Origin: Odontesthes bonariensis
Taxonomy: Eukaryota > Chordata > Actinopteri > Atheriniformes > Atherinopsidae
Assembly (NCBI RefSeq): GCF_027942865.1
Contig: NC_134517.1
Span: 18,916,009-18,980,008, forward strand
Length of the DNA stretch: 64,000 nt
Direction of reading: 5' to 3'
The notes beneath the pieces are model-generated. The model did not search any database. It was not told where the DNA came from and saw only the letters and a program-made list of their open reading frames with translations. Each line of letters opens with the position of its first letter. The stretch's first letter is position 1. Positions 3,001-63,500 of this stretch are shown in pieces. The position numbers were made by a program, and so were the translations under genes.

Positions 3001-3051
3001 AATTTGGGGTTCTCTTTTATGTGCTCTTTGCTCTCTCCTATATGTAAAGAC
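1..3051. other. 5' flank and first intron region of pdzk1
   Basis: No convincing protein-coding exon is seen. A plausible untranslated first exon of pdzk1 ends at 1640, where GGAGCTG is followed by a consensus GTGAGT donor; its 5' end cannot be fixed. The next acceptor (AG at 3049-3050) lies two bases before the start codon. The rest is AT-rich unique-looking sequence with short T and G runs (1664-1679, 2427-2440). Short reading frames here have no splice context and no recognisable protein family. Confidence 0.4.
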
Positions 3052-34505: not shown

Positions 34506-37500
34506 TCAGTGCAGCTTGACAGCAGCATATTCCGTGCAGTTATCCTGTTTGGAAGTGGCACGGTGATTTCTGGCAGGTGTCCCACACTGTCTGTGGTTGA
34601 TGACAGCATATGCTGCACTGTTTGATTCTTTATCTGCTGTGTTCACAACCACAGGTTGGCACCCAGTGGAAATGTGAGGAGGTCGTGATGCTGTGACTGT
34701 GGTACTTAAAACATAGATGCCATTCAGAACTGAGACTTGCGTGTCCAGGTCAGGAGCAGATGGGGTGGTTCTCTTGGGAAGACTCGGTATCATATGAGTG
34801 GACTTTTCCTGTCACGGAAAACAAATAAGACTATGAAATACTTTTCCTTATGCGATTATGATTCTCTGTAGACGTGAAGCAAGAGTCAAAAAGTCAATTC
34901 ACAGAGAATGAAGTTGATCTGGCTCTGTCCAAAAGTTACAAAATCTGCATTCCAATCTTTCAAATTCATCTCCAAGTTCTCTCAACAGGAGACAGGGTAC
35001 ATTGTCCAAAAACCATTCCCTTAAAGAAACAACACTGCTTCACGTTACCTCTCCCTTTATGTAGTTGCAGGTCCACTTTCCTGTGAAAAGAAAAAAAGAA
35101 AAGTTTTGTTTCGGGAGGTTAAAGAAACAATTTTTCTGTTTCAGGATCCAAAAGCATCAATGCAATCTTACGGTTCCAGCCATGATAACGCAGGAGGGTT
35201 AACGCGATAATTGCGGTAACCAGAAGGACAAGGCTAAGACAGATGGAGAAGTAGGGCAGCCAGGAGACATCAACAGTCTCTGGTGACTCATCTGCAGAAG
35301 AAAATAAAACTGATCAATGTTTCTAAGAGGTATCCAGAAAATATGACTGAAAAGTAAATGTTCCTACCTGCATAATCATCAGAGGTTTCATCACCATGGT
35401 TCTCATCTTTAGGAAGTAGTATGTAGCATGTATGATTAAAACATACATTCATATATATCACATGCATGTTTTTATAATGATGGAAGAAAAGGACTACACA
35501 CCTGAAACTGAGATGTTGATGGCATGGCTGAAGAGTTCAGGTGTGCGACCAATTAAATCACATCTGTAAAGTCCGTCATCATTAACTGAAACCTTTTTGA
35601 AACTCAAATTAGAGATCAGATCATCATTCTTATAAATCTGCCTTATTTCTACATTTTCTGTATCATGAATCCGTTCACAGTGGTTTATGTGGACGACTTT
35701 ACACCAGGTGACATTCAGTGAGTCTCCGCAGTGTTTGACCGGACAGCTGACTGTCAGACTTTCTTGGGGGGCAACTCTCCAGATCGTGCCTCTCCTCACT
35801 GTGAGCATAACGTCACAGGAAGCAGGCAAATCTGAAATGAAAGAATATATATATTTAATCTCAATCCATCGGGCCTTCGTAGTGATTTGTGTAATTTACT
35901 TTAGATCAAACATAATAGTTTAAACAAGAAGCTGTAGGTCATTTTAAGAACTAGTCTAAGGCACTTGTGGGACTAAAGTACCATATCTTGGTGAATACTA
36001 CTTATCCTTTGTGGTTAACATAAACTTTTGTTGTTACATCTTTTTTGTCTGTCTGTTTGTTTGTCTGTTTGTTTGTCTGTTTGTTTGTCTGTTTGTTTGT
36101 TTGGGCCAATATCAGAAATTTGTTTCAAGTGGCTTTTCCGTGGACCTACACTTTCCTTCAGATGAATAAAAAAACCTGCAACATTTCCACATTCTTAGGG
36201 CCTAAAATAACTTATTTGCCCACTTTTTTCGCTTGCAAATTGTGACATACTCAACAAATGGGATACAGCAAAGTGTAACATAAAATATAGCGTTATACCA
36301 CAGACTCTAATGTCAGAGAGCCAAGCCCATCGTATGCACTTTTGTCCAATTTCACTTTCAGTCAGTTAAGTGTAGAAAAATAGATGGTTAGAAGTAGATA
36401 TTAAATAGATCCATGTATTTAAGAAGGGTTACATGGGTTTTACATGATAACAGGAATTTTTCAAATGTTCACATATTCATTGTCATCGTGTCACCTGAAA
36501 TTATTGCATACAAGACAACAGGCAAAGTAAAACTATCTCAGTTTCTTGATCTTTTTTGTTTGTGACATGATGTGAACATGTGGACAAAAGAACTTATCTT
36601 AAGTTTTCTTGTGAGACTGGGCTACATCACCACAGCAAAACTTTATATTGATTGGCAAAGAGCATGATTTTTAAATCTAAAAACAGTTCTAAAATGTAAT
36701 TGATTGATGACTTTTACATGAAAACTAGTCATTTTTGTCACTTGTCATTGATTTGTGATGAAAAACAACATATTCTATATTTTGTAAGTACTAAGACATT
36801 TAACTTCTGCTGCCGTCTAAATTTTACATGGCAAAGAAAAAAAAAGTTACTTCTGTTATCGTCTTTGGACAAAAATAGCAATTAAATAAAATAAGTATGA
36901 AAGATAGTAAAATGTTTGAAATAGCATTATTGCAATGCGACAATAAGAAAAATTTTAAAAACCATGAAGAGGAAAATGTTCCAGTTTTGAGCTGTAACAA
37001 CTGTACTTATTTTTGTGAACCAATTTATATTCATTTCCTCCTTGGACAGTTACAATCATGATAATTCTGTTAGTTTTTTCCGTTTTTTTTCATTTGGGAA
37101 AGTCAGAAGTGACTGCAGTTACAACCACATCCTGTTATTTATCTAATCATTCATTTATAACCAGACTCCCGTCCGATGGCTACTACTCAGAAAGGCTCCA
37201 GCCCCCCTTCAGCCTGAGCTGAATTGGGCAGGTATAGAAAATGGAACAGGATGGATGGACGGATCATGGTATGTATATTCAAACCAAAAAACAAATCATC
37301 CTGATAGTAAGCCCTGTTGTATACCTTAAAAAGGAAACAATACATCGGGAGTTAAATTATGTATCCTCCCCACACTGTTTTTTTGTACGTTACATGACTG
37401 TAAATGACTCAATAAGCTTTGTTTGCCAGTTAAAGTTAAACTAGACCAAACTAATTGGGTATTATGGCTATAAAGTCCGATCTTTCTTTGTCTTGTTTCT

Positions 37501-37848
37501 AAAATTATAATAAAATAACTTCTGCTAAGTATTTTCCTTAATTTTTCTGTCTCCTTAACCACAAACTCTTATTACTATACTGTGCAATGCAGTTCTCAAA
37601 CAGATTAAACTGGTGGTAACATACTTTTTAGTTGTTGTTACCACCTCATCCCTTAACCTTCTTTCTTCTGCTCTTATACAGACATAAGTTTCTGATGTTG
37701 ATCCATTAGACTCTATCGAAATGTCACCCATGCTCTTATCCCCAACAACAGATCACTATGGTTTACCTTGACTTCCTCCACAGATGCAGATTAATGTAGA
37801 GCACCAAACTATCAGATAGTTCAGTCTTCTGTCCATTGTGCTCAACAT
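34506..37848 (-). CDS. btla: BTLA copy 1, full-length inhibitory receptor
   Basis: Known role: lymphocyte co-inhibitory receptor that binds HVEM and recruits SHP phosphatases. Exons: 37767-37848 (signal), 35502-35831 (V-type Ig, residues 28-137), 35368-35406 (stalk), 35172-35291 (transmembrane), 35049-35080, 34506-34808 (tail); 301 residues. The Ig domain has CPVKHCGDSLNVTWCKV, close to human CPVKYCANRPHVTWCKL, and closes with DDGLYRC. The tail has Tyr233 (GIYVLS), Tyr268 (SAAYAVINH) and Tyr295 (CTEYAAVKLH, an ITSM-type TxYxxV near the C-terminus). These line up with human GIYDND, VYASLNH and TEYASI, though the Grb2-type YxN is not kept at Tyr233. Sequons NVT and NLS lie in the Ig domain. A second in-frame ATG (37834-37836) is an alternative start. 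Confidence 0.88.
36047..36104. repeat. Tetranucleotide microsatellite (TGTT/TGTC)
   Basis: Alternating TGTC and TGTT units in the first intron of BTLA copy 1. The equivalent introns of copies 2 and 3 lack it. Confidence 0.9.
37163..37265 (+). repeat. 3' fragment of a teleost dispersed repeat
   Basis: Contains GGCTCCAGCCCCCCTTCAGC and ends TATAGAAAATGGA, then GGATGGATGGACGGAT. This is the usual 3' part of the common fish repeat whose 5' part resembles the block at 15713-15990. It sits in the first intron of BTLA copy 1. Confidence 0.6.
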
Positions 37849-40100
37849 GCTCACCACCAGAAATCTTTCAAATAAGCTATACCGCTGGAGCTTACTTTGC
37901 TTGAGACAAGCTCACCACTTCCTGACCTCCCACGTATTTTCTGCGACCCAACCTCACTCATGTGTATCTCAATATGTCACGAGGAGACAAAGTTTCCAAA
38001 GTGCATTATGTGAAGAATCACACGCAGAGTGTTTCCTTTTGCAATAGATTTCATAACCCAGGCTTTCAGGTACAAATATTTACAGAGATGCAGGTCATCT
38101 TCAGCACAGAAACCGGGACACATGCAGTAGCTGTCGTTATTTTCTGATCTGATTAACTCTGGGTCACCTTGGTAGAGTTAACATACACTGATCCATCATC
38201 TCAACAAAAGCTACACTCCCACATTTTCAACAGGAGCACAGTAGTTTAGGCAGGAGCTCTGATTTCAGAGAACTAATGTGGTCTGTGGAGCGCTTCATCC
38301 CTGCTCGGAGAGGAAAGGGGATTCAATCAGTTTATTCCACCTTGCAGAGGTTACATGTTTGTTTTTTGAACATTTTATACTAGTTATCACGCTGCCCCTC
38401 TGTCACATGAATGTTCTCGGGTTGATTTTTGATCTTATACTTTCAATGTAATGATCAAAGCTAAAAAAAAAAAAAGGAAAAAATTTAAACTTCCAAACAA
38501 GAGATTCAGTTTCTGCAGCTTCGGAAAAAAATGTTCAGTGCTTGCCTTTTTCTAAAAATATCTAATGTAAATGACAGTTGTATCTTAGAAGCAAAGAATC
38601 ACTAGAAGTTGAGGTTCTGGTGTGTCATGTTCATTATTCTTGCCACATACAATTTACAAATCAAATGTCTTTGTCTTTTTTTCTCTTCTTTTCCTTTCCA
38701 TGAGAACAGCTGCCTGTTTGGATTGAAGCATCTTTCTGTTGCAGCCTGTGGGCGTTGTTTCCTCAGTGGTATATGAAGCCCAGGCTTTCCCAATGGCACC
38801 ATCTGGTGTAGAAATACAGCAGTATGTGCTGTAGGTGGATGCGTGTTTGTGCGCCTCAAAAAGTAACCTGAAAAAACTAATAACGTGCATTTTCTTTTCC
38901 ATTTAACCCATAAGCAGTTATTAGTCAGTCAGTTACATAAAATCTTTGTCTCTCTGTGAAACATCAAGAGGATTAGGGTATTCAAATATTTTGTGATCAA
39001 GTTTAATGAGAAACTTTAAGAAATGGAAAAAGACTTGTTGGTTAAGAGAGGCAGAAAGTGTGTTGAACAGGAACAGAAGCAACCACCTTCTGAAGTTTCA
39101 TTCGATTTTTTTATTTATTTTGTGCCCCTTCCTTCTTGGTTCTCTTTGCCGTTGTTCGTAAGTTATTGATCTCAGTTAAACAATCTGTCTACCAAAAGAA
39201 GCTTACTCTTTGAATGACCCGACTGAAATTTAATTTATTGTTTAAGGACCTGAAGTGAGCGGCTCATGTGAAGAGACCCGCCAAAATGCCTGAGCTGAAG
39301 GGGCTCTGTACAGAGAATGGACTGAAAACTCCTCAGACTCGATGAACTGGACTGATCATAAGTTACTGGAAATGACAGCAAGTTTTGCTGGTGAGTCAGA
39401 TTAGATACTGAAAGCAGAAACTTCACTTTGTGTTTTTAATAGAATATATGTGATACGTTTTCTCAATTAATTGAAGATTATATCTTTTGTGTTATTTTCC
39501 CGGTTCAGATTTCTTTATTGTTTTATTTCTTTATTTTTTTTTGTACTCGTGTCAAAAAATGATAATATTTCAGGCCAGTTTAAATGTTTTATAAACCTTC
39601 AAATACGACTGTATGTGGGCGAGTGAAGGGGACTTTTGGCAGATGTGTCTCTGTCCTCTCTGTAACCTGCGTACATTTCCACTAACCCACACTGGTTAGT
39701 TTTTACGTTAACATTTCTCCTCTATAGATTAAGTGGATTCTCACAGAAAACTACAAGAGATGAGCCGACCAAATTATCAGTTCAAATTTCAAGGTGAAAG
39801 AAATACACATGGAAATATAAAGCCTCGGGACTGAACTTCAGGACTAAACAGCTTTATAGACATAGAAATCTGCTGAACAACACCTACTGTAGCAGCCACA
39901 CAGAAAAAGAAAACATCCATTAAGTGTAATACACAGTCTGTACATGAGAAATCCACCAGGACTGTTTGCTCAAACACATGAATTACATTTTGGTCAGTAA
40001 AGTTTAATAAGTCCTCCAGTCTTAATAAGAAATGTTCAGAAATCGATGATGGTGGTTTACTGTGGACTTTTATCTCTTTGAGTCAGTTTTTACTGTTCTC
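37849..40100. other. Spacer between BTLA copies 1 and 2
   Basis: Up to about 38935 this aligns with the upstream regions of copies 2 and 3 (43600 and 47920), so it belongs to the BTLA duplication unit. The piece 39240-39360 resembles 58080-58200 upstream of the CD200R-like gene. From 39649 it is the start of the 4.3 kb tandem unit (3' flank of copy 2). No coding exon is supported. Confidence 0.5.
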
Positions 40101-42687
40101 CTACAGAGACCCTGGACTCACTGTTGATGACCGAAGAATGAACAGCACGGCCTGAGTCTGCTCTCTCTGCATTTGCTAGTGGGACAAATGGAGAAAAAAA
40201 GAAAAGAAAAAGAAAATACTCCACTTGTTAGATGGCAGCCAAGGGACATTTTAGATCCAAAATGTTGATATACTGTATGTTAATGTTCTTACACTGAAAG
40301 CAATTAGAGATAAGTGGACCACTCACGGCCAATATGACCACCAGACTAGCTATACTAAAACAGATGGAGAAGTAGGACAGCCAGGAGACATCAACAGTTT
40401 CCGGTGACTCATCTGCAGATGAAAAAAAACCTGATCAGTGTTTCTAAGAAATATCCAGAAAATATGACGATACCAGTATCGGTAGCGGTACTGATACTAT
40501 GTGCGTGTACTCGTATTCAGTGTTCATTAAAGTGTTCCGATACTACAGAACCGATACCAGTGTGACAGGAGTTTAATTTTCCTGCAATGTGTTTGTGAAA
40601 GTTAAAATGTTAAAACAATATGTTGCACTAAGAGTAGTTTTATATTACTAAAATGCACAAAGTGCAGTTGTATTTGGGTCGAATATGCCTAAAAATAAAA
40701 TAAAATGTGTTTTATTGTAAGAACTGTAATGGCCTTGATTAGTACTTATATCGGTACTCTGTATCGGCAAGTACTAAAAGGTAAGTACTTGTACTTGTAC
40801 TCAGTTTAAAAGAATGTGGTATCAGTGCACCCCTACTGAAAAGTAAATGTTCCTACCTGCATCATCAACAGAGGTTTCATCACCATGGTTCTCATCTTTA
40901 GGAAGTAGTAGAGAGCATGTAGGATTAAAACATACATTCATATGTATTACATGCATGTTTTTATAATGACGGAAAAAAGGACTACACACCTGAAACTGAG
41001 ATGTTGATGGCATGGCTGAAGAGTTCAGGTGTGCGACCAATTAAATCACATCTGTAAAGTCCGTCATCATTAACTGAAACCTTTTTGAAACTCAAATATG
41101 AGATCAGATCATCATTCTTATAAATCTGCCTTATTTCTACATTCTCTGTTTCATGAATCCGTTCACAGCGGTTTATGTGGACGACTTTACACCAGGTGAC
41201 ATCCAGTGAGTCTCCGCAGTGTTTGACGGGACAGCTGACTGTCAGACTTTCTTGGGAGGCAACTCTCCAGATCGTGCCTCTCCTCACTGTGAGCATGACG
41301 TCACAGGAAGCAGGCAAATCTGAAATGAAAGTATTTACATGCAATCTCAGTCCATCGAGCCTTTGTAGTGATTTGTGTCATTTACTTTAGATCAATCATA
41401 ACAGTTTTAACAAGAAGCTGTAGGTCATTTTAAGAACTAGTCTAAGGCACATGTGGGACTAAATGATCAGATCTATGTGAGTACTACTTATCGTTTGTAG
41501 TTAACATGAGCTTGTGTTGTTAAATAGTTTTTTTTGTTTTCTTTTTTTCCAATATCACAAATTTGCTTCAAGTGACGAGTCATTTTGTCCCTATATTTTC
41601 CTTCAGATGAGGAGAAACTCTCCAATAAAACCCTTCAACACGAGGAACAACCAGCGTGCAGCGGACTCACAGTATACACCTGTGGACCATGGAAACTGTA
41701 TCCTGTTTCTTGTTTTACATTAAACATTGACTCCTTCCTGAAACAAGTCAATATCCAAAACAGTCTCAAACCGTTGCATGTATTTTCCACTGGTTTAAAC
41801 TGCAAAGTATATCAGTTTTAGAAAATTTGAAAACAGCTGAACTTTCTGCATACTGACATTTTTTACAATCTTTACATACTTGTCGAATCATACCAAGAAG
41901 AATTGCAAATATGATCAAATTTCTACTTTTTTAAAGCTCCAAAAACATGCTTATGATTTACTTTATAAGAAACTATTACAAATGGGATATAGAACAAGTG
42001 CTAAATATGCAAAAATGATCATAAAGAGATGACATGATGCCAGTGTTATACCGGAGTTTCCTGCCAGACAAGTTAGAGCTGATCTGATACTGTTCAATTT
42101 TACTTTGAATCTGCTGAGCAAAGAATAATGCATGGTTGGGAGTAGATATTAATGAATACATGTACTTAAACAATGATTACATGCATTTTCAAATGGCAAC
42201 ATAAATTTATAAATTGGTATGTATTTATATGCATACATATTTATGTATTTTTCACACCAAAACTAGCTACTATCTAAATTTTTACATAATGAATTCCCTT
42301 TGTTATGTTCTTTGGACATCAATAGCAGCAATTATGCACAAAGCTTCATGACTGTCAAGTATTTTCCTTAATTTTTCTGTCCTCTTCACCCCAAACTCTT
42401 ATTACTATACTGTGCAATGCAGTTCTCAAACAGGAATGAAATAATAAATCAAACTGGTGGTAACATACTTTTTAGTTGTGTTACCTCCTCATCCCTTAAC
42501 CTTCTTTCTTCTGCTCCTATACAGAAGTTTCTAATGTTGATCCATTAGACCATATTGAAATGTCCCCCATGCCCTTATCCCCAACAACAGATCACTAAGG
42601 TTTACCTTGACTTCCTCCACAGATGCAGATTAATGTAGAGCACCAAACTATCAGATAGTTCAGTCTTCTGTCCATTGTGCTCAACAT
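40101..42687 (-). CDS. BTLA-like copy 2, short-tailed receptor
   Basis: Exons: 42606-42687 (signal), 40990-41319 (V-type Ig), 40857-40895 (stalk), 40327-40412 (transmembrane), 40101-40175 (tail); 612 nt, 203 residues, in frame. The Ig domain differs from copy 1 at only a handful of positions. Asn of the NVT and NLS sequons is replaced by Asp and Tyr. The transmembrane exon ends early, at ILA with a GTGAGT donor. The next acceptor (CCCACTAG at 40176) leads to a tail starting QMQREQTQAV and ending VSPGSL, with no tyrosine, ITIM or ITSM. Reading through the donor also gives a short tail, with one Tyr not in an ITIM. No charged residue is seen in the membrane segment. Whether it signals through a partner or acts as a decoy cannot be told. 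The tail exon is inferred from splice sites. Confidence 0.75.
40468..40834. mobile_element. Nonautonomous hAT-like insertion in BTLA copy 2 intron
   Basis: Rich in GGTACT and ATCGGTA phrases. It begins CGATACCAGTATCGGTAGCG and ends GTATCAGTGCACCCCT, the usual look of a fish hAT-type MITE with a GGGGTGCA-type end. The homologous intron of copy 1 has an empty site (AATATGACTGAAAAG near 35340-35355), so the limits are sharp. No coding frame. Confidence 0.7.
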
Positions 42688-44388
42688 GCTCACCACCAGA
42701 AATCTTTCAAATAAGCTATACTGCTGTAGCGTGCTTTGCTTGAGACAAGCTCACCACTTCCTGACCTCCCACCTACTCTCTGTGACCAACTCTCACTCAT
42801 GTGTGCATCACACACAGTGTTGTGTGAGAGTGTTACCTTTACAGTAGGTTTCATAATGCAGCCTTTAAGGGATCAACAGAGATGCAGGTCATCTTCAGCA
42901 CAGACACTGAGACACATCCAGTAGCTGTCTTTATTTTCTGTTATGATTAACTCTGGGTCACCTTGGTAGAGTTAACATACACTGATCCATCATCTCAACA
43001 AACTACATTTTCACCAGGAGCATATAAGATCAGGCAGAAGCTCTGACTTCAGTGTCTGAATTCTGTCACATGCTCTCGGGTTGATGTATGATGATATACG
43101 TTCTTGCTTTTGTAATAAACATTTGCAGTAGCTGTAGATATCAAAGTCAAAGAAGAAGCATTCAGACTTCTTAAAAAGGGATTCAGGTTCTGCAGATTGG
43201 TAAGAAAAATATTCAATGTTTTCCACTTTCTAAAATATCTAATGTAAACGAGCGTCATTTCTTAGAAACAAAAGATCACTTGTAGTTATGGTTGAGGTTT
43301 TTCACGTTGGTTATTCTTGCCATATACAAGGTACAAATCAAATGTGATTTATCTTTTACTCCTCTTTTTCTTTTCATGAGACCAGCAGCTGGTGTGGATT
43401 GAAGCATCTCTCTGTTGCAGACTGTGGGCGTTGCTTCTTCAGTGGTATGTGAGCCCCATCCAGACTTTCCCAATGGCACCATCTGGTGTAGAAATATAGC
43501 AACATGTGCTATAGCTGCGCGCATGTTTGTGCATCTCAAATTTAAAATAAATTAAAAAAAGTAAGAACATGCATTTTCGGTTTCAGTCGACCCATTAGCT
43601 GTTATTAGTCAAGACAGATGTTTATTTATTGTTTTTGCCAGAGTTTACTGCGTGCAAATTAATTCCAACGTAGACAATTACAGCAGACAAGTTTCAGGCA
43701 AACAAGGAAAATATATATCATATTATATATTATTCACTTTAAATCAAGCATATAAATGATCAAATTATTTCTAATGCATTTCAAATTCCATAATCAACCT
43801 ATGTATATCTTTGGATACTCTGAGTAGTACTCAGAATAAACACATAAAAACAGTATCACTCAGAGTCTAATTCTCTTTGTTAGCATCTTATTTCTTAACT
43901 TTTGGCCTGCTTTCCATTTACTTACATAAATATACTCTGTCCTCTCTGTAACCTGCGTACATTTCCACTAACCCACACTGGTTAGTTTTTACGTTAACAT
44001 TTCTCCTCTATAGATTAAGTGGATTCTCACAGAAAACTACAAGAGATGAGCCGACCAAATTATCAGTTCAAATTTCAAGGTGAAAGAAATACACATGGAA
44101 ATATAAAGCCTCGGGACTGAACTTCAGGACTAAACAGCTTCATAGACATATAGAAATCTGCTGAACAACGCCTACTGTAGCAGCCACACAGAAAAAGAAA
44201 ACATCCATTAAGTGTAATACACAGTCTGTACATGAGAAATCCACCAGGACTGTTTGCTCAAACACATGAATTACATTTTGGTCAGTAAAGTTTAATAAGT
44301 CCTCCAGTCTTAATAAGAAATGTTCAGAAATTGATGATGGTGGTTTACTGTGGACTTTTATCTTTTTGAGTCAGTTTTTACTGTTCTC
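42688..44388. other. Spacer between BTLA copies 2 and 3
   Basis: Upstream flank of copy 2 (to 43934), then the 3' flank of copy 3. It repeats the pattern of the other BTLA flanks. Open frames near 43276-43539 recur in copy 3 and, shifted in frame, in copy 1, which argues against coding. Confidence 0.5.
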
Positions 44389-46990
44389 CTACAGAGACCC
44401 TGGACTCACTGTAGATGACCGAAGAATGAACAGCACGGCCTGAGTCTGCTCTCTCAGCATTTGCTAGTGGGACAAATAGAGAGAAAAAAAAAAAGAAAAA
44501 GAAAATACTCCACTTTTTAGGTGGCAGCCAAGGGACATTTTAGATCCAAAATGTTGATATACTGTATGTTAATGTTCTTACACTGAAAGCAATTAGAGAT
44601 CAGTGGACCACTCACAGCCAATATGACCACCAGACTAGCTATACCAAAACAGATGGAGAAGTAGGACAGCCAGGAGACATCAACAGTTTCCGGTGACTCA
44701 TCTGCAGATGAAAAAAAACCTGATCAGTGTTTCTAAGAAATATCCAGAAAATATGGCGATACCAGTATCGGTAGCGGTACTGATACTATGTGCGTGTACT
44801 CGTATTCAGTGTTCATTAAAGTGTTCCGATACTACAGAACCGATACCAGTGTGACAGGAGTTTAATTTTCCTGCAATGTGTTTGTGAAAGTTAAAATGTT
44901 AAAACAATATGTTGCACGAAGAGTAGTTTTATATTACTAAAATGCACAAAGTGCAGTTGTATTTGGGTCGAATATGCCTAAAAATAAAATAAAATGTGTT
45001 TTATTGTAAGAACTGTAATGGCCTTGATTAGTACTTATATCGGTACTCTGTATCGGCAAGTACTAAAAGTAAGTACTTGTACTTGTACTCGGTTTTAAAG
45101 AATGTGGTATCAGTGCATCCCTACTGAAAAGTAAATGTTCCTACCTGCATCATCATCAGAGGTTTCATCACCATGGTTCTCATCTTTAGGAAGTAGTAGA
45201 GAGCATGTAGGATTAAAACATACATTCATATGTATCACATGCATGTTTTTATAATGACGGAAAAAAGGACTACACACCTGAAACTGAGATGTTGATGGCA
45301 TGGCTGAAGAGTTCAGGTGTGTGACCAATTAAATCACATCTGTAAAGTCCGTCATCATTAACTGAAACCTTTTTGAAACTCAAATATGAGATCAGATCAT
45401 CATTCTTATAAATCTGCCTTATTTCTACATTCTCTGTTTCATGAATCCGTTCACAGTGGTTTATGTGGACGACTTTACACCAGGTGACATCCAGTGAGTC
45501 TCCGCAGTGTTTGACGGGACAGCTGACTGTCAGACTTTCTTGGGGGGAAACTCTCCAGATCGTGCCTCTCCTCACTGTGAGCATGACGTCACAGGAAGCA
45601 GGCAAATCTGAAATGAAAGTATTTACATGCAATCTCAGTCCATCGAGCCTTTGTAGTGATTTGTGTCTTTTACTTTAGATCAAACATAATAGTTCAAACA
45701 AGAAGCTGTAGGTCATTTTAAGAAATAGTCTAAGGCACATGTGGGACTAAATGATCAGATCTATGTGAGTACTACTTATCGTTTGTAGTTAACATGAGCT
45801 TGTGTTGTTAAATAGTTTTTTTTGTTTTCTTTTTTTCCAATATCACAAATTTGCTTCAAGTGACGAGTCATTTTGTCCCTATATTTTCCTTCAGATGAGG
45901 AGAAACTCTCCAATAAAACCCTTCAACACGAGGAACAACCAGCGTGCAGCGGACTCACAGTATACACCTGTGGACCATGGAAACTGTATCCTGTTTCTTG
46001 TTTTACATTAAACATTGACTCCTTCCTAAAACAAGTCAATACCCAAAACAGTCTCACACCGTTGCATGTATTTTCCACTGGTTTAAACTGCAAAGTATAT
46101 CAGTTTTAGAAAATTTGAAAACAGCTGAACTTTCTGTATACTGACATTTTTTTACAATCTTTACATACCGTACTTGTCGAATCATACCAAGAAGAATTGA
46201 AAATGATCAAATTTCTACTTTTTAAAGCTCCAAAAACATGCTTATGATTTACTTTATAAGAAACTATTACAAATGGGATATAGAACAAGTGCTAATATGC
46301 AAAAATGATCATAAAGAGATGACATGATGGCAGTGTTATACCGGAGTTTCATGCCAGACAAGTTAGAGCTGATCTGATACTGTTCAATTTTACTTTGAAT
46401 CTGCTGAGCAAAGAATAATGCATGGTTGGGAGTAGATATTAATGAATACATGTACTTAACAATGATTACATGCATTTTCAAATGGCAACACAAATTTATA
46501 AATTGGTATGTATTTATATGCATACATATTTATGTATTTTTCACACCAAAACTAGCTACTATCTAAATTTTACAGGGCAAAGGAAACATAATGAATTCCC
46601 TTTGTTATTTTCTTTGGACATCAATAGCAGCAATTATGCACAAAGCTTCATGACTGTCAAGTATTTTCCTTAATTTTTCTGTCCTGTTACCCCAAATTCT
46701 TATTACTTTACAGTGCAATGCAATTCTCAAACAGGAATCATATGATAGGTTAAACTGGTAACAAACTTTTTGTTGTTGTTACCACCTCATCCCTTAACCT
46801 TCTTTCTTCTGCTCCTATACAGAAGTTTCTAATGTTGATCCATTAGACTCTTAGACTCATTAGAGTCCCCCGTGCCCTTATCCCCAACAACAGATCACTA
46901 TGGTTTACCTTGACTTCCTCCACAGATGCAGATTAATGTAGAGCACCAAACTATCAGATAGTTCAGTCTTCTGTCCATTGTGCTCAACAT
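44389..46990 (-). CDS. BTLA-like copy 3, short-tailed receptor
   Basis: Exons: 46909-46990 (signal), 45278-45607 (V-type Ig), 45145-45183 (stalk), 44616-44701 (transmembrane), 44389-44463 (tail); 612 nt, 203 residues. Nearly identical to copy 2. In the Ig domain it has RVSPQES where copy 2 has RVASQES, His for Arg after VHIN, and GHTPE for GRTPE. The tail starts QMLREQTQAV and ends VSPGSL, again without tyrosine. Both tail-less copies keep every splice site and frame, which suggests they are under some constraint or very young. It shares with copy 2 the loss of the NVT and NLS sequons. Confidence 0.75.
44757..45122. mobile_element. Nonautonomous hAT-like insertion in BTLA copy 3 intron
   Basis: Same element, position and orientation as at 40468-40834 in copy 2, with a few substitutions. 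It was therefore carried along by the duplication rather than inserted twice. Confidence 0.7.
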
Positions 46991-49767
46991 GCTCACCACC
47001 AGAAATCTTTCAAATAAGCTATACTGCTGTAGCGTGCTTTGCTTGAGACAAGCTCACCACTTCCTGACCTCCCACCTACTCTCTGTGACCAACTCTCACT
47101 CATGTGCATTATGTGGAGCATCACACACAGTGTTGTGTGAGAGTGTTACCTTTACAGTAGGTTTCATAATGCAGCCTTTAAGGAATCAACAGAGATGCAG
47201 GTCATCTTCAGCACAGACACTGAGACACATCCAGTAGCTGTCTTTATTTTCTGTTATGATTAACTCTGGGTCACCTTGGTAGAGTTAACATACACTGATC
47301 CATCATCTCAACAAACTACATTTTCACCAGGAGCATATAAGATCAGGCAGAAGCTCTGACTTCAGTGTCTGAATTCTGTCACATGCTCTCGGGTTGATGT
47401 ATGATGATAAACGTTCTTGCTTTTGTAATAAACATTTGCAGTAGCTGTAGATATCAAAGTCAAAGAAGAAGCATTCAGACTTCTTAAAAAGGGATTCAGG
47501 TTCTGCAGATTGGTAAGAAAAATATTCAATGTTTTCCACTTTCTAAAATATCTAATGTAAACGAGCGTCATTTCTTAGAAACAAAAGATCACTTGTAGTT
47601 ATGGTTGAGGTTTTTCACGTTGGTTATTCTTGCCATATACAAGGTACAAATCAAATGTGATTTATCTTTTACTCCTCTTTTTCTTTTCATGAGACCAGCA
47701 GCTGGTGTGGATTGAAGCATCTCTCTGTTGCAGACTGTGGGCGTTGCTTCTTCAGTGGTATGATATGAGCCCCATCCAGACTTTCCCAATGGCACCATCT
47801 GGTGTAGAAATATAGCAACATGTGCTATAGTTGGACGCATGTTTGTGCATCTCAAATTTAAAATAAATTAAAAAAAGTAAGAACATGCATTTTCGGTTTC
47901 AGTCGACCCATTAGCTGTTATTAGTCAAGACAGATGTTTATTGTTTTTGAGTTTACTGCGTGCAAATTAATTCCAACGTAGACAATTACAGCAGACAAGT
48001 TTCAGGCAAACAAGGAAAATATATATCATATTATATATTATTCACTTTAAATCAAGCATATAAATGATCAAATTATTTCTAAATGTATGCATTTCAAATT
48101 CCATAATCAACCTATGTATATCTTTGGATACTCTGAGTAGTACTCAGAATAAACACATAAAAACAGTATCACTCAGAGTCTAATTCTCTTTGTTAGCATC
48201 TTATTTCTTAACTTTTGGTCTGCTTTCCATTTACTTACATAAGTACCCATCCAGGTATGCGTTCATACCCTTACAACAAACAGTTAGACTATACTCTCAG
48301 CCATTAACATTTCCTTTGAGCAACACTAGCATCACAACAAAGCTTTACCCGACTTTTTCCATAGAAATGGGAACACCATCAGTGTCATCAGACAGTTCAG
48401 CCTGTCCCTTAGTCTCAGCATGCTCATGCAGAGTACGGAGGAAATCTACTGAACATATTGAAGGGGTTTATTTCTGTCATGGTGGAGCTCACCACTTCCT
48501 TACCTCCCACATACATCCTGTCAGTATCTTGAACATGAACATATCGCGATATGTGGTGAAGTAAGAGTCCAGTGTGCACATGTGTAAAGAATTGCATGCA
48601 GAATTGCATGCAGAATCTTTCAAATCGAGAGCCAATATCGCTTTCCCATGAGCTATAAGACAATATATTTCCATTTTTTTTCTGCAGTGTGAACGTAGCC
48701 TGATTAACTGTAAGACCCACTAATACTGGATCAAAAGCTGGATAGTGTTTAGACCTCTGAAAGTGCCCTCTCGTGTTAAATGCAGAAGTAGCCAACACAA
48801 AGGAATATATGGTTTTGTAGAACTGATGAAAAAAACAAGATCAGTTGTTACAGAACATGCCAGCCACGGACATCTGATATTTAACAGCTAAACCATTCAG
48901 ATTACATTGCAGATTACAGAAAAATTCCTAAATGACTATTACAATCATAAAGGTTTTCCTCTTAACAAATAGACAGCTTGTACTCCGAACGGGACTTTCC
49001 ACTATACATGTAAAAGATCAGTGACTTCCTCATGTGCCTTATCAATAAAATTTGCATAATCATGCAAATAAGATTATCTAAAAAGCACAAACATTGCTCT
49101 TAGGGTGAACTCTGGAACTATCTGCATTGTTGCATACTGCAGGGGGTCAGCAGATGTCAGAAAGTAGTTTCACTGTTAACATTTTGCCACCAGCTCAAGA
49201 AAGTGGCAAAAGCAGAGCATCATTTTTAAACTTCATGAATCATTAAATGCACTGAATAATCTATTTTCTCATAGGTTTATTGGAGCCAATACTCTGAGCC
49301 CCACAAGTTTGTTTGAGGGTCAAAATCCAAATTTTCGGTTAGACTCGCTTAAAAGTTGAGGCGAGGTTTAGCTATTCATTTGTGATGGTAAACTTAAGGT
49401 ACAAAGCAACGTATTACATCAATGGTGCTTCCCCACTAAAGTACGTAGTTAAATAAATGAGTATGCGTGTGTGATTCAGGTGAATCGATTACTTGGTTCT
49501 CCTCCACATCAGTATCTGTATTGTTGTGCGATGCATGGTTACGTGTGCACTCACGCACAGGAAAAAAAAATAGCAAACAAACTCACACACAAGAGGGCCT
49601 TTGTGTCATCTCCTGTCCCTCCCTCCCACTCATATCTTCTCTCTCTGCTCTCCCTCGCTGTTGTGGCCTGCGTTCATTCTGATGCAGCAGCAGAGAGATC
49701 GGTGACATCAGTGTCAACTATAGTTTTTTTTTTTTTTTAAAAGAAAGGGACTCTTTGAGGGATCATC
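46991..49767. other. Upstream flank of BTLA copy 3 and divergent spacer
   Basis: To 48242 it repeats the upstream flank of copy 2. Then comes a more diverged BTLA upstream-like stretch carrying the partnerless signal exon (48349-48421), followed by unique sequence. A T run (49722-49738) lies just before the start of the GCSAM-like gene. Confidence 0.5.
48349..48421 (-). pseudogene. Orphan BTLA-type signal-peptide exon (fourth partial copy)
   Basis: Reads MLRLRDRLNCLMTLMVFPFL, then WKKSG, and ends at a GTAAAG donor. It has 73 nt, leaving phase 1 exactly like exon 1 of the three BTLA genes. Flanks align with theirs: GACAGTTCAGCCTGTCCC here against GATAGTTCAGTCTTCTGTCC, and a shared GAGCTCACCACTTCCT-type stretch upstream. 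No Ig exon of its own lies between it and copy 3. It is either the remnant of a fourth gene or an alternative first exon for copy 3. Confidence 0.55.
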
Positions 49768-51153
49768 ATGGGAAACTGCGCCTCAGGGTAGGTAATCACC
49801 TCATAGATGTGTGCTACAAAATGATTTTTCAGAATGTCTAAAGTTTTGTTACAACTGCTGCGAATGTAGAAAAACTTCTTGGAAACTACTGTGATCAAAC
49901 TACAGTTAAATGAGCAACACCATTTAAAAGATGGAAATATTAGCGATAAAAGCACTTGTTCAGATGAAATGTTGTTGCACTGTCAGACATGTGGCTGTTT
50001 TGCACTGTGTTTTCAAGGAAATAGCAGTTGGTGAATAAAAAGGCATGGTTTGTGGTCTGTTACTTTGTCGGTGTCAAGGCAGACATAAAGGATATATTAT
50101 CTTTCTTCAATTACAATGTATTTTTGTTCCAGCATTATCGAAACGTTGACCTAGAAGTTTTGAGGTGCTGTGCTGTGCTGAGACGGGGCAGTTGCTTATA
50201 GACAAATGATAGTTGTAGGTCTGTGTAAAGTGTTTCCTGTTGCAGCATACATTTTCATCTGTTAAGCTGTCAAGGAAACACTGCTGTGGGGTAAACCAAC
50301 ACCTCTGACAAGCTGCTGTCGATATCAATCTGCGGCATCACATGAAAGATCACGTTAAAATAACTTTTTCACTCTTTCTGAGTAATTTACCCCTCACTAT
50401 CGCATTTTTATTGTTTTCCATGAACAATAATGCTGTCGATGTAAATGACTGTGTACTAACTGGGGTCAATCGTGTCAATTTGCTTCATTGTCAGGCAAAA
50501 GAAGAAGAGGAAAGGTAAAACAGCAAATTCATTTACATTTGTACATAACATTTTTTTTTTACTGTATAGTATCCAGGACTTATAGTGTACGAACATTACA
50601 CCATGTGGATGCACTTTACATATTGACATTTTCTCTTTCAGGAGATTCTGCATCAGCGGATAAAAGCAAAGACAACAAGGTAGACGTCCCTGCATCTATT
50701 TCTGTTGACCATTAATCTCCATAGTTATCATCTGTTGCCCGGTCAGAGGCTAGATTTGCATACTGGGTGAAGGTTAGCAAGAGGCCTCTTTTATAAAAAG
50801 AAACTCCGGAGTATTTCAGGAGGTATTTGTAAGTAACCACTCTCAAAAACCTGTTGGTTCCAGAAGCACTGTAATAACAAAAAAAAAATCATGATGAGTT
50901 GAAGTATATGTTCAGAACAGACAACTTTTCTCTCAGCTTTACTCTCTGTTCTGTTACCTGGCAGCCTAATGAGGATGTGACGTATGCCTCCATTAACCAC
51001 ACCAATGTTCTACAATCGAGAAGAGCCATAACTACATCAGACAATGACTGTGACTATGCAACAGTGAACGTCCCAGCAGCACTTCTGGCTGAGGTAGAAT
51101 CTGAGTCTTCGTCCAAAGAGGAATGTGCTGACGATTATGTGCTGATGGGGTAA
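49768..51153 (+). CDS. Small lipid-anchored tyrosine-motif adaptor, GCSAM/GCSAML-like
   Basis: Exons: 49768-49787, 50495-50514, 50642-50679, 50965-51153; 267 nt, 88 residues. The start MGNCASG fits N-myristoylation at Gly2 with palmitoylation at Cys4, followed by a basic KKKRK. There is no transmembrane segment. Tyr33 (VTYASINH, an ITIM pattern), Tyr57 (CDYATVNVP) and Tyr84 (DDYVLMG) are spaced through the last exon. As I recall the human proteins, GCSAML starts MGNC and GCSAM has CYTLINH, EYYENVP and DEYELLMP in the same order, and GCSAM lies near BTLA and CD200 in human. The Tyr33-Tyr57 part also resembles the BTLA tail (AYAVINH to EYAAVKL), and the last two introns have the same phases (1, 0) as those before the BTLA copy 1 tail. 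Orthology to GCSAM is likely but not certain. AATAAA lies at 51297-51302. Confidence 0.62.
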
Positions 51154-54275: not shown

Positions 54276-57217
54276 TTAGTTGTAGATCGAGTTCACACGT
54301 TGAACATAGCTAGCATAGGGCTCCACTTCCTCCACATCCTCTGTCTAGAAAAAAAAGTGATGACAGTTGTCATTAATCATATTTGATTAAATGCAGTGCA
54401 TAACACAGAAACTTGAAAAACAGAGTGCCTTTTAGAAAGTTTACTCACCGGTGGCGATTTGGATGTTGACGTGCCTGTCTGTCGACATCTTCTGGCAAAA
54501 GTTGCACAAACGAGCTGAGTTACTTAGCTTGCAAGAAGTCATTTTAATCTATTTTTCACTAAGTTATATTACTTACCTCAACATAATCAGTTTCTTCAGT
54601 GCACAAAGTGAAAGTCCCGCCAAGAATACAATGATTACCACAAGTATAGGTATCCATAGCCAAGAAGCTGCATAGAGTTCAACGGTGAGATGCAAAGAAT
54701 CAACAACAATATAGAATTCACAGTCAGAGTTTATCCTAAGAGTCAGAATAAAATTGAAAGCTTTCTGTCCAGTTTTGTATTCAGAGGCCTGACCTTTTTT
54801 CAGTGGAGTTTCTTTTATGAGTTCCGGTACCAGAGTCTTATCCAGATTCCAGGACATGTGCCTGACAACGCAGCTCAGGTTTTCTGGTTTAATGCTTTCG
54901 GGCAGCTCCAGATAACTTTCTACTGTAAAAAATCCATCGGAGTCATTCTGTGTTTTCACAGAGTCCAAGTATCCTGTGTAACTCCAGCTGATGTTGGCAG
55001 GAGGATTTCCTCTTTCAGCTCTGCACACCGCCACCATCTTGTTGTCCTTAAGCTCCAACCATGCAGATATGTTGGGAGAAACTAAACCAGGAAAGACAAA
55101 CACAATAGAAAAAGAAACAAATGCCTAAGTCTGATGTATAAAAAATTAAATGTAAAATACAAATCCCCACACAGATAGACTTTTTTATTTATTTATTTTT
55201 TTTTTTTTTATTGAGTACCTAAGAACTGTGGAGAAAGACTATTGACAGCAGTCTCACTTAATTATCAAGAGCAAGAGCGATATTATGTCTAGAAATATTT
55301 AAAACTCACATATCACATATTTGAGGATTTTCAGTGAAAGGTGCAGTGAGAATGATCGAACATGACAACAGACCCTCACATGAGTTATGAGGGGGGTTGA
55401 ACGTCCTACCTGTGAGAGTCACATTGATGTCATAATTTTCATTTCCTCCTTTGAAAACTGACTCACACTTGTAGACCCCCACATCATCAGCTGAAAAGTT
55501 TGGGATGTGCAGGTAAGACTGACCACTGGAAGTGTTTCGAAGAGACTTGTCATCATTGCAGGTGTCTTCGCTTTGACCATCATTGCTAAAGGCAAGCTTA
55601 CAGGATTTGTTATTCACTTTTATATTCCAGATAACAAACATTGTCTCACTCCATGTCTTATCACTGCAGTTCAGGTACGCATCACTCCCAAGATTGAAAA
55701 CTGCCTTTCTGCGAACTAAGAAAAAGAAAGCAATTTTACATTAGTTTTGCAGATTGTGGCAATTGAAAAATGCCAAATCAAACACAGACACATGGATTCA
55801 GTTTTATGTAGAACACAGATGTTCATAATGAAAATAAAGAAAGCAAACTGAAAATCATATGTAACACATAAGGAAAGGCATAGAACATAACAAAATGTCA
55901 ACAAAATGATGTTGTTGCCATATTATATAACTTTGTCTGAGGCATTTTCACACATTTTGATAACAGAAAGTGTTTCATGATTAAATTTTTATACATTTTG
56001 AACAGGATTAAAATGTACTCAACTTTCTATGTGTTTGCAAGAACTTCTTAATATATGTTGTCTCAAAATCACACACATTAAGCAGTTTGAAAAAAAACAA
56101 ACAAATCAAAACATGAGAAAATGAATTTACCCAGAAACTTTTTAGGGGGAGAAGTTGTGCTGGGTTTCAAAGAGGTGTTTTCATTAGTTCCTGAGAGAAA
56201 CAGAGGCGGATGTGAGGAAAAGGTTAGTAAAAAAGGGTGATTTCTCTTTTAGTGAGAATAAGTTGATTAATTCCAAAGTGTTTAATCAGCAGAGCATCAA
56301 TCAAGGGTTTATTTTTTCATGTTAGTTGCTGTCAAGTTAGTTCATCAGTCAGATAAGTAATTAGCTAAGGTGAGAGGTGATGATTAGAATCAATCTGCAG
56401 TTGAGAGAAAAATTGCAGTTTGAAGAGTAAAATCTCACTGTAAAACTTGAACTTCCCCAACTTATAAAGTTGCCCATGGCTGTAACTGACTGTGATTACT
56501 GTAACTGAGCGATATGGGGTCTGACACTTGTTTACTTTTCACACTTGTAACTCAGCACATGAGGTGGGTAGTAAAACCACAACTCAAGAGACCCCGCAGT
56601 GGGGGAAAACCGCTGCATCATTGTGTTACCGGGACCTGAAACCATGATTTCCACTGCAGAAAACAAGTGGCAGCCTGCACTTTGCTCATTAAGAAAATCT
56701 GGAGATATCCCCCTCATACATTGTTATGGAACCTTTTTTTTTCCCTTGTCACCTTCCGAATAGGCCCACCTACATGCTTGTTCTTTCCACAGACTGTCAG
56801 CACTAAATATAGTCATAACAACTTAAAATAAATCTCAGTTTGCTACTTGTTCAAGAAAAGATGATGATTATCAGCCACAGCATGTGGGCTGCATGATAGC
56901 TGACATACATAACATACATTTATTTAACAAAGTTTCCATTTAAAAGTTAAAGATTACAGACTATAATACATTAAATCACTCCATTACATCATTGTTCTAG
57001 TAACATATATGAATTAGCCAGTAAATTATTCAAAGAGACGATTCCTTTCAAGGTCCTTGACTAAAAAACATGCTTATGTTAAAAGCTGTGTCTGAACAAG
57101 GTTTAAACAATGATAACCACATGCGAGTTAGATGTGTTAAGGGTCCAAACCTGAATCCAGGCTCCATGCTTCAGACAAAAAGATGATACAGATATTAATC
57201 CACAACATGTCTGTCAT
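54276..57217 (-). CDS. cd200r1-like: CD200 receptor 1-like protein
   Basis: Known role: inhibitory receptor of myeloid cells for CD200; its tail recruits Dok adaptors. Exons: 57151-57217 (signal), 56131-56190 (Thr/Ser/Pro-rich linker), 55410-55715 (V domain, residues 43-144), 54794-55081 (C2 domain, 145-240), 54577-54667 (transmembrane), 54449-54491 (basic), 54276-54344 (tail); 307 residues in frame. The C2 domain has VAVCRAERGNPPANISW, close to human TAVCKAVAGKPAAHISW. The tail reads EEVEPYASYVQRVNSIYN, close to human EDEMQPYASYTEKNNPLYD, keeping three tyrosines (295, 298, 306). The NPxY-type site is NSIY, without the proline. Exon 1 ends at a weak GTTTGG donor. The presumed ligand-type gene, CD200-like, lies 25 kb away on the other strand. 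Confidence 0.9.
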
Positions 57218-60512: not shown

Positions 60513-63500
60513 AATTCAAATTCAATTCAAAAATACTTTATTTATCCCAGAGGGAAATTAAATGTTGATGTAGCTCAATTAAATCAAAGAGTTATTATAG
60601 ATGCTGATGGCTGTGGGCAGGAAAGATTTCCTGTAGCGGTCCGTTTTGCATCCAAACTGAAGAAGCCTTTGACTGAAGAGACTCTGTTTTCTGATAACAG
60701 TCTCATGGAGAGGATGTTCAGGGTTGTCCATAATTCTCTTGATTTTATGCAAAATTCTTCTTTGCATTATTGTCTCCAGAGGTTCCACAGTCGTCCCCAG
60801 AACAGAACCAGCCTTCCTTATCAGGTTGTTGAGTCTTTTTAGGTCCCTGGTTCTGATGCTGCTGCCCCAACAGATGACGCAAGAGGAAATGACGCTCTCA
60901 ACAACAGACTTGTAGAAGATCTGCAACATCTTGTTGCAAACCTTGAAGGACCTTAGCTTCCTCAAGAAGTACAGTCTGCTCTGTCCTTTCTTGTAGATGG
61001 CTTCACTGTTGTGTCTCCAGTCCAGTCTGTTGTCCACATGAACACCAAGGTATTTATATTCCTCAACCACCTCCACTTCTTCTCCCATGATGGAAACAGG
61101 GTTTGATCTGACCCTGTTTCTCCTGAAATCTACAATCATCTCCTTTGTTTTGTTAACATTCAAGATGAGATGATTGTTCCCACACCATGCCACAAAGCGG
61201 TCCACCAGCTCTCTGTACTCAGCTTCTTGTCCATCTCTGATACACCCGACAACTGCAGAGTCATCTGAATATTTCTGTAGATGACAGGAGTCTGACTTGT
61301 ACTGGAAGTCTGAAGTGTACAGAGTGAAAAGGAATGGTGAGAGTACAGTCCCCTGTGGTGCTCCTGTGCTGCTGATCACCTGGTTAGACACACATTTCTT
61401 CAGTCTGACAAACTGTGGTCTGTTTGTCAGGTAGTCATTAATCCAGGTGATTGTTGAGGCCTCCACCTGAGTCTTCTGGAGTTTCAGACTAAGCAGATCA
61501 GGCTGGATTGTGTTAAATGCACTGGAGAAATCAAAGAACATAATCCTCACAGTGCTGCCTGCTTTGTCCAGATGACAGTGGGTTTGTTGAAGCAGGTGTA
61601 TGATAGCGTCTTCAACTCCAACTCCATGGCGATAAGCAAACTGCAGGGGGTCCTGATATGTGCTGGTTTGCTTACACAGGTGGGTCAACAGGAGTCTCTC
61701 CAGGACCTTCATGATGTGGGATGTCAGTGCAACAGGTCTGTAATCATTGATGTCTGAGGGGTGAGTTTTCTTTGGTACCGGAACCAGACAGGATGTCTTC
61801 CACAACAGTGGTACCTTCTCTTGGGTCAAGCTAAGGTTGAAAAGGTGTTGCAGAATCCCACAGAGCTGCTCTGCACAGGCCTTCAGGACTCGGGGGCTGA
61901 CACCATCTGGACCTGCAGCCTTGTTCCGGTTCAGTCTTTCCAACTGCCTCTTCACCTGACTTCTAGAAACAGAAAAGTGGGAGGGGGAGGCAAAGGGGAG
62001 AGCAGCATCTCCTGATTGGGTTGATGACAAACTAGTGGAAGCAGAAGAATCCATGACTGAGGTGGAGGTGGAGATGTTACAGGAAAGCTGTGGGTCAGAG
62101 GAGGGTGGGATGTCTCTTTGGCTGGGAACAGGAGGAGAGGATGGTGAGCTTGTTCCTGAACTGAACCTGTTGAAGAATGTGTTCAGCTCATTTGCTGTGT
62201 CCAGACTTCCATCCATCCGATCCTCCCTCTGCTTGAGGCCTGTGATCTTCTTCATTCCTGACCACACATCTCTGATATTGTTCCTCTGCAGTTTACTCTC
62301 AAGCTTCTTTCTATACACCTCCTTGCTCTCTCTGATCTTGACTTTGAGCTGCTTCTGTATACTCCTCAGTAACTCCCTGTCTCGCTCCCTAAAGGCTCTT
62401 TTTTTCTTGTTCAATAGTTCCTTTAGCTCACTGGTGATCCAGGGTTTGTTATTAGGGAAGCATCTCACTGTTCTGGTGGGGATGGTGTTGTCCACACAGA
62501 AGTTTATATAGTCAGTCACACACTCAGTCATGGCATTAATGTCCTCTCCATGTGGCTTACAAAGAGAAATCCAATCGGTTGCATCAAAACAACCCTGTAA
62601 GGCTTCTTCAGCTTCCTCTGACCATTTTCTAACAGTCTTTTTTGTGACAGGTAGTCTCTGAACAAGGGGTTTATATGCTGAACAGAGAAAAACAAGGTTG
62701 TGATCTGATTTTCCCAGGGGAGGTCTTGATTTGGAAATGTATGAATCCTTGACATTTGTGTAAAACAAATCCAATGTCTTGTTTTCTCTGGTAGAGCAGC
62801 TGACAAATTGTTGAAAAGTTGGCAGTGTAGCAGAGAGTGAGGCATGATTAAAATCACCAGATATTGCCACAAAAGAATTGGGGTGTTGAGTCTGTATCTT
62901 AGCAACAACGGAACTGATGACATCACATGCAGTGTCGGCAACAGCTGATGGTGGAATATAAACAGCCACCAAAACAACACTGGTGAACTCTCTTGGCAAA
63001 TAATATGGACGAAAACTTACTGCCAATAGTTCAATGTCAGGACTGCAGAGACGACTCTTCACAGTAACATGTCCTGGGTGACACCATCTGTTGTTGACAA
63101 GCACTGCCAATCCACCCCCTTTCCTTTTCCTGCTAGTCTTTATATCTCGATCTGCTCGTACAGTCAGGAAGCCCGGCAGAGAGACGCTGGAGTCGGGTAT
63201 ATGATCCTGTAGCCATGTCTCAGTAAAACACATAATGCTACATTCCCGATATTCTTGCTGAGTCCTTATCAAGGCTAAAAGTTCATCCAACTTGTTAGCT
63301 AACGATCTTACATTGCCCATGATGCAGGATGGCAGAGATGGTTTGAACTTCTTCTTTCTTTCTCTCCTCTTTGCTCCTGCTCTGCATCCACGACGCCTCC
63401 TTTTCAATTCCAGTGGGATTTCTGGCTTCAGTTGTCGAATTATTTCTGCTTTTCCAATGTTATTCAGCTGCTCCCTGTTGTAAACCACCTTGTTGCTATG

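Follow-up and report, generated by a model that had tools for sequence, protein, structure and literature searches.

The locus described here raises the question of how an array of BTLA-type inhibitory receptors, some of which seem to have lost their signaling tail, is related to a neighboring gene for a small, apparently membrane-anchored protein with tyrosine motifs of the BTLA kind. It lies in a stretch of 64,000 nucleotides from the fish Odontesthes bonariensis (contig NC_134517.1, positions 18,916,009 to 18,980,008 of the forward strand), the whole of which is called the window and is numbered from its first base. Three BTLA genes were found on the minus strand of the window, and a gene for a GCSAM-like adaptor, on the plus strand, was found in head-to-head orientation with BTLA copy 3. 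The reading that we consider likely is that copy 1 of this fish BTLA cluster is complete, that copies 2 and 3 have an eroded tail, and that the likeness between the adaptor and the BTLA tail comes from a shared grammar of the immunoreceptor tyrosine-based inhibitory motif (ITIM). The genes, and the duplication that contains two of them, are as follows.

37848-34506, minus strand: BTLA copy 1 gene, with signal, immunoglobulin (Ig), stalk, transmembrane, 32-nt and tail exons
42687 to about 40036, minus strand: BTLA copy 2 gene
46990 to about 44324, minus strand: BTLA copy 3 gene
49768-51153, plus strand: adaptor gene, four exons, 88 residues
39649-48242, unstranded: tandem duplication with copies 2 and 3, 4.3 kb, 97.0% identical

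Copy 1 is a complete inhibitory receptor, and its exons are given below.

37767-37848, minus strand: exon 1, signal peptide, with the same start as the deposited protein P0056
35502-35831, minus strand: Ig exon
35368-35406, minus strand: stalk exon
35172-35291, minus strand: transmembrane exon, 120 nt, donor GTAAGA, phase 1
35049-35080, minus strand: small cytoplasmic exon, 32 nt, phase 1 to 0
34506-34808, minus strand: tail exon, with the ITIM YAVINH and EYAAVKL, which resembles an immunoreceptor tyrosine-based switch motif (ITSM)

The Ig domain, the membrane span, the ITIM and the ITSM-like tail identify copy 1 as a BTLA, and all four are common to it and the fish BTLA records. As initially annotated, 26 residues separate the tyrosines of YAVINH and YAAVKL in the tail exon (34808-34506). 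The Ig domain of copy 2, which is near-identical to that of copy 1, matched Pfam V-set with 25.1 bits, just below the cut-off of 26. With copy 1 as the query, 106 of 954 candidate proteins were matched at E <= 0.001, and all of the named ones were fish BTLA or uncharacterized fish proteins, except the rodent BTLA P0158. A membrane span was not detected by our script in 14 of the 106 matches; among the remaining 92 matches, 20, including P0056, had no tail motif by the rule YxxI/L/V, and some of these 20 are predicted isoforms, fragments or records with a misplaced span. Three Solea records (P0100, P0130 and P0135) had kept INH without the tyrosine of the ITIM.

The exons of copies 2 and 3 are listed here with the transmembrane exon read to the donor position of copy 1 and the tail exon read in the phase-1 frame that follows from it.

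42606-42687, minus strand: copy 2 exon 1
40990-41319, minus strand: copy 2 Ig exon
40857-40895, minus strand: copy 2 stalk exon
40293-40412, minus strand: copy 2 transmembrane exon; the deposited model stops at 40327
40036-40175, minus strand: copy 2 eroded tail exon; the first stop ends at 40090 and a second stop is at the place of the ITSM tyrosine
46909-46990, minus strand: copy 3 exon 1
45278-45607, minus strand: copy 3 Ig exon
45145-45183, minus strand: copy 3 stalk exon
44582-44701, minus strand: copy 3 transmembrane exon
44324-44463, minus strand: copy 3 eroded tail exon; the first stop ends at 44378

The initial annotation had given copies 2 and 3 a 24-residue tail without tyrosine. 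Such a frame is present (40175-40101 in copy 2 and 44463-44389 in copy 3), and that of copy 2 is part of the deposited O. bonariensis protein P0056, to which our copy 2 gene model was identical by eye, signal peptide included; as the real tail, it was disfavored by a shuffle test that pointed to the phase-1 frame. The 24-residue frame requires splicing at a phase-0 donor, GTGAGT, that cuts the transmembrane exon after 86 bases (with 40327 and 44616 as the last exon bases), and the donor position of copy 1 (GTAAGA, base 120, phase 1) is kept in both copies. Splicing from GTAAGA to the same acceptor yields NAERADSGRAVHSSVI, a residue that differs between the copies (N in copy 2, Y in copy 3), and SESRVSVGEQ, after which the frame stops. 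This phase-1 tail consists of 28 residues, including the one split by the intron, and contains no tyrosine in copy 2 and one non-ITIM tyrosine (VIYSES) in copy 3. When read with X at the stops, the phase-1 frame reaches its final stop at about the place where the tails of other fish BTLA proteins end.

For the shuffle test, 61 BTLA tails were extracted by pattern from 105 matches (the 106 less P0056), and 50 were used after three Kryptolebias paralogues, matches numbered above P0154 and duplicates had been left out. Against these 50 tails, the phase-1 frame scored 34.0 in copy 2 and 35.0 in copy 3, with shuffle means of 20.7 and 21.1, and its score was equaled by none of 300 shuffles in either copy (z 8.1 and 7.3, respectively). 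The 24-residue frame of copy 2 scored 18.2 (z -1.0), a value reached by 265 of 300 shuffles, by which it was ruled out as a BTLA tail, and the third frame of copy 2 scored 20.1 (z 1.1; 49 of 300 shuffles). In the alignment of the phase-1 frame, both copies had a histidine at the place of the ITIM tyrosine and a stop at that of the ITSM tyrosine, the two places being set by a consensus written by eye. Since no shuffle reached the score, the donor of copy 1 is kept, and a histidine and a stop occupy the two tyrosine places, the tail exon of copies 2 and 3 is most likely an eroded BTLA ITIM/ITSM exon, and the deposited 24-residue reading frame is probably wrong.

The window was also scanned in six frames (426 pieces) with a hidden Markov model (HMM) of the BTLA tails. 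The copy 1 tail ranked first and the adaptor second (E 1.6e-4), followed by the tail places of copies 2 and 3 in the third and fourth ranks, and the next piece had an E of 1.3. This HMM revealed no intact ITIM exon that could belong to copies 2 and 3 anywhere in the window, the rest being pieces at chance level. With the Kryptolebias paralogue P0146 as an independent probe, the best-ranked of the 426 pieces were copy 2 (E 0.11), an unrelated piece (E 0.18) and copy 3 (E 0.2), in that order, a result that is suggestive only. Two points weigh against the eroded exon. The window-wide E values of the two relics in the HMM scan (0.22 and 0.94) are not significant by themselves, and the sole splice evidence, the deposited model P0056, uses the phase-0 donor and not the one preferred here. 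That model, a GTGAGT donor judged fair and the intact ectodomain frames of both copies would fit decoy BTLA receptors that are spliced as deposited and maintained with a 24-residue, tyrosine-free tail; we regard this as rather unlikely, since the deposited splice shortens the membrane span (best 21-residue hydropathy 2.05, versus 2.31 when spliced at GTAAGA and 2.53 for copy 1), the 24-residue frame shows no likeness to BTLA tails, and the donor offset of copy 1 is retained. Decoys of this kind would also be compatible with our reading of the adaptor.

Whichever frame is read, copies 2 and 3 differ from BTLA by the loss of both the ITIM and the ITSM, and with no ITIM left the receptors should be signaling-poor. 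Ligand binding would remain possible and phosphatase recruitment would be lost, so that an eroded tail exon would make these copies decoys or early pseudogenes. The BTLA copies would also illustrate the loss of the tail from an inhibitory receptor, and the deposited gene model may hide the eroded exon by choosing another splice donor.

Comparison of the copies showed where their similarity ends. In exons 1-3, copies 1 and 2 differed at 11 of 451 bases, which made four silent and seven replacement codons. The block of copy 1 at 35346-36046, containing the Ig exon and its flanking introns, was 93% identical to copy 2, and the blastn alignment of the two copies (E <= 1e-3) stopped at 35234, within the transmembrane exon, with nothing aligned further downstream. 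The 5' exons of copies 2 and 3 are nearly those of copy 1, probably because recombination or gene conversion took place within the transmembrane exon; a recent event of this kind would have joined a copy 1-like 5' part to a 3' end that is older and separate. Copies 2 and 3 are taken as a recent tandem duplicate of a BTLA gene of this make-up. One comparison counts against our reading: the exons 1-3 of copies 2 and 3 differ at five of 451 bases, each of them a replacement change, which may reflect drift, or selection for new binding. A divergent BTLA paralogue was seen in Kryptolebias marmoratus (P0146, P0076 and P0148), with a short tail that has the ITIM TYALITH and in which the ITSM tyrosine is seemingly replaced by cysteine. 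The 3' ends of copies 2 and 3 may have this paralogue as their sister.

The adaptor is encoded by a conserved gene of its own, composed of four exons.

49768-49787, plus strand: exon 1 (MGNCAS..), ends in phase 2
50495-50514, plus strand: exon 2 (polybasic QKKKRK), 20 nt, phase 2 to 1
50642-50679, plus strand: exon 3, 38 nt, phase 1 to 0
50965-51153, plus strand: exon 4, with VTYASINH, CDYATVNVP, ADDYVLMG and the stop

Its translation of 88 residues was identical by eye to O. bonariensis P0001, and the initial description of a protein that starts with MGNC and carries YASINH and YATVNV, with 23 residues between their tyrosines, was borne out. The coordinates also confirmed the claim that a small phase 1-to-0 exon, of 32 nt in copy 1 and 38 nt in the adaptor, precedes a tail exon entered in phase 0 in both genes. 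Close relatives of the adaptor are held by many acanthomorph fish; the protein search for them covered the best 120 of 232 matches, and relatives in zebrafish, gar or reptiles may lie outside these. From the matches, 77 relatives were chosen by a C-terminal ending of the DxYxxM type, 65 of which were complete (start MG). All 65 complete adaptors, selected as they were for an MG start, began with MGxC, and the invariant positions of their alignment were M1, G2, C4, V31, Y33, A34, I36, Y57, D83, Y84, V85 and M87, with N3 nearly invariant; the invariance of D83, Y84, V85 and M87 is owed partly to the choice of the set. The ITIM-type pattern [VIL].YAxI was present in 73 of the 77 adaptors, the stricter VTYASI[ND]H in 51 of 77, and CDYAx[VI] in 72 of 77. 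Of the 75 adaptors counted, 52 had the commonest spacing of the two tyrosines, 23 residues; in BTLA the commonest was 26 residues (25 of 42). Among solved structures, the adaptor profile matched three CTCF entries only (E 0.2-0.51), which were taken as chance.

The adaptor would be lipid-anchored at MGNC and has a polybasic patch. About 23 residues separate the tyrosine of its ITIM (VTYASI) from the second one (CDYATV), a layout that would suit tandem-SH2 phosphatases such as SHP-2, and a third tyrosine is C-terminal. Most likely the adaptor is a membrane scaffold in its own right, like GCSAM.

Matching by hand put the adaptor and BTLA on contigs of identical length in 29 of 30 species or clusters, the exception being Plectropomus, for which there were short fragments only. 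Many of the adaptor relatives are named si:ch211-214p13.7, and some fish BTLA records are named si:ch211-214p13.8; we take these to be names from one zebrafish bacterial artificial chromosome, in which case the adaptor/BTLA pair would stand together in zebrafish too.

The initial annotation had proposed that the adaptor and the BTLA tail share a phosphotyrosine module. In hhalign, the adaptors aligned with the fish BTLA tails at a score of 33.0 and a probability of 89%, and the best of 100 column shuffles reached 15.4, so that the shared module stands; it consists mostly of the two motifs, however, and SIRPA reached 20.5 bits on the adaptor HMM. Identity in the adaptor/BTLA alignment, judged by eye, comprised YAxINH and YAxxNV and little besides. 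On the adaptor HMM, the 50 fish BTLA tails scored 2.4-23.5 bits (median 15.7), and the human control tails of SIRPA, LILRB1 (18.1 bits), CD300A, LAIR1 and KIR2DL1 spanned 11.8-20.5 bits. The BTLA-tail HMM gave 19.9 bits to eel BTLA, 13.3 to Chinchilla BTLA, 12.3 to a mammal-like record and 8.8 to tarpon. Pairwise z scores were obtained from a sample of 11 of the 65 adaptors, 9 of the 50 BTLA tails and 6 of 43 mammalian GCSAMs, with 33 of the 65 adaptors as the reference. Against the adaptors, the sampled BTLA tails reached 1.9-12.4 and the controls 1.0-10.3; against the BTLA tails, the six GCSAMs reached 4.4-10.0, with two of them exceeding every control.

Shared ITIM motif grammar is the favored explanation of this likeness. 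In PMC12151841, the tandem ITIM/ITSM is described as a combined SHP-2 module in PD-1, the motif pair of BTLA as binding SHP-2 synergistically under some conditions, and the C-terminal SH2 domain, with a further citation, as preferring alanine at pY+1. Both genes could therefore have come to the same letters under selection for a single phosphatase.

Several results pull the other way. The adaptor profile was closer to the fish BTLA tails than to GCSAM (23.6, 13%), the adaptors scored a median of 15.6 bits (8.5-25.1) on the BTLA-tail HMM, above the best of 13 controls (SIRPA, 12.7), and the adaptor scores on this HMM are a little higher than a generic ITIM grammar predicts. The control tails, moreover, were human, none of them from fish. 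Together with the profile score, these values would be expected if the adaptor were a copied BTLA-type tail exon, freed and anchored by a new N-terminus, with mammalian GCSAM descended from the same event. The z scores of the sampled adaptors against the BTLA tails (5.7-17.4, with controls at -0.2 to 6.9), the last two intron phases, which are the same in the two genes, and the adjacency of the genes here and their equal-length contigs elsewhere point in the same direction. We nevertheless hold this origin to be improbable, since the likeness is almost restricted to the two motifs, SIRPA (20.5 bits, z 10.3) equals most BTLA tails on the adaptors, the genes are oppositely oriented, and mammalian GCSAM, despite its pairwise z scores, did not exceed 5.1 bits on the BTLA-tail HMM, a value within the range of the controls. 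The BTLA tails likewise scored at most 9.0 bits on the GCSAM HMM, versus 10.7 for the best control. A small phase 1-to-0 exon followed by a phase-0 exon is also the layout of the tails of KIR/LILR-type receptors. The earlier suggestion that GCSAM derives from a BTLA tail is thus unproven. It would have the GCSAM family begin as BTLA-like receptor tail exons that were freed and re-anchored by a myristoyl group, with the fish adaptor nearest the origin as an SHP-2-recruiting ITIM/ITSM tail and the mammalian form made into a Grb2/SYK scaffold, a course of events to which we give little credence.

As for the kinship of the adaptor with GCSAM, HGAL (PF15666) in Pfam matched 26 of the 65 adaptors at E <= 1, with a best E of 3.2e-4, followed by SCIMP (13 of 65) and SIT (12 of 65). 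SIT1 and SCIMP are small lymphoid tyrosine adaptors with a transmembrane segment, and they differ in this from the fish adaptor, which seems to be lipid-anchored to judge from MGxC. Profile alignment of the adaptors with 43 mammalian GCSAMs scored 23.6 locally and 21.6 over the full length, each reached by none of 100 shuffles. On the GCSAM HMM, the fish adaptors had a median of 10.2 bits and a best of 19.2, and the controls had 3.7 and 10.7, respectively. Four results count against membership: the window protein P0001 reached 15.2 bits, below the curated HGAL cut-off of 27; the hhalign probability was just 13% (local) and 15% (full-length); the alignment past the first motif was equaled by 18 and 16 of 100 shuffles; and in the reverse direction the mammalian GCSAMs (median 9.7 bits, best 19.8) stayed within the controls (median 7.9, best 20.5) on the adaptor HMM. 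Since HGAL was the nearest Pfam family, below its threshold, and the adaptors had a higher median than the controls on the GCSAM HMM, the adaptor is tentatively called GCSAM-like, and its membership of the GCSAM family is unproven.

Residue by residue, the adaptor has in common with GCSAM/HGAL (with GCSAML/C1ORF150) the MGN start and the YxxINH ITIM-like tyrosine, which corresponds to human Y86. Two further tyrosines of the adaptor stand in the same order as the two SYK-binding tyrosines of GCSAM, in the part of the alignment that 18 and 16 of 100 shuffles reached. Linkage to BTLA is common to both. The fish adaptor is about half as long as GCSAM and lacks several of its sites. The YENV Grb2 site is missing, with Y.N found in 0 of 77 adaptors; the CFC palmitoylation pair is absent from P0001, and no CxC occurs in P0001 or the adaptor consensus; and the PDZ-binding end is absent, P0001 ending in ..DDYVLMG, where the 77 of 77 adaptors without a PDZ end are not an independent count, the set having been picked by that ending. 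For human GCSAM, PMC11518702 describes sites of myristoylation, of palmitoylation (CFC) and of Grb2 binding (Y107ENV), a PDZ-binding end, the SYK-binding tyrosines Y128 and Y148, and Y86, which is termed a consensus ITIM and whose partners are left undefined there. Phosphorylation of GCSAM also occurs in natural intraepithelial T cells, according to PMC12132402, so that a role confined to B cells is not to be assumed. Neither a fish GCSAM nor a BTLA-derived adaptor was found described in the titles and abstract openings of the literature searched. The present analysis ties a conserved fish gene, tentatively, to the germinal-centre adaptor GCSAM, and fish are not known to have classical germinal centres. 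If the fish form binds SHP-2 and not Grb2, the first job of the adaptor may have been inhibitory.

The initial annotation had also proposed that the adaptor could act in trans for the short-tailed copies 2 and 3; that it makes up for their missing ITIM is unsupported and very improbable, since, for all the proximity of the genes and the ITIM on a protein that looks membrane-anchored, the adaptor is retained in fish with a full-tailed BTLA (in Menidia, adaptor P0005 alongside BTLA P0058), the tails of copies 2 and 3 look eroded, their membrane span has no charged residue, Pfam gives no receptor-binding domain in the adaptor, and no sequence feature coupling it to copy 2 or 3 was seen. Its presence in full-tailed species and the equal-length contigs indicate that the link between adaptor and BTLA is old and is not tied to the loss of the tail.

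The neighborhood of these genes contains further receptor-like exons. Ig exons on the plus strand at 16341-16682, 18692-19111 and 24040-24414 matched Pfam V-set and C2-set_2 and look like parts of CD200-type genes, and V-set plus C2-set exons on the minus strand at 54576-55740, with matches to V-set and C2-set_2, are taken to resemble CD200R. Human GCSAM and BTLA are both at 3q13.2, and a neighborhood of CD200, BTLA, CD200R and a GCSAM-like gene would fit that region. Exons of a multi-PDZ protein, which we take to resemble PDZK1/NHERF3, were observed on the plus strand at 2980-6500, and Pfam confirmed PDZ for both open reading frames tested. Between two of the Ig exons, an inverted repeat at 18070-18732 (663 bp) was 91.6% identical to its own reverse complement. 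An open frame of 1024 residues on the minus strand at 60582-63653 appeared by eye to be the reading frame of a LINE-type retrotransposon.

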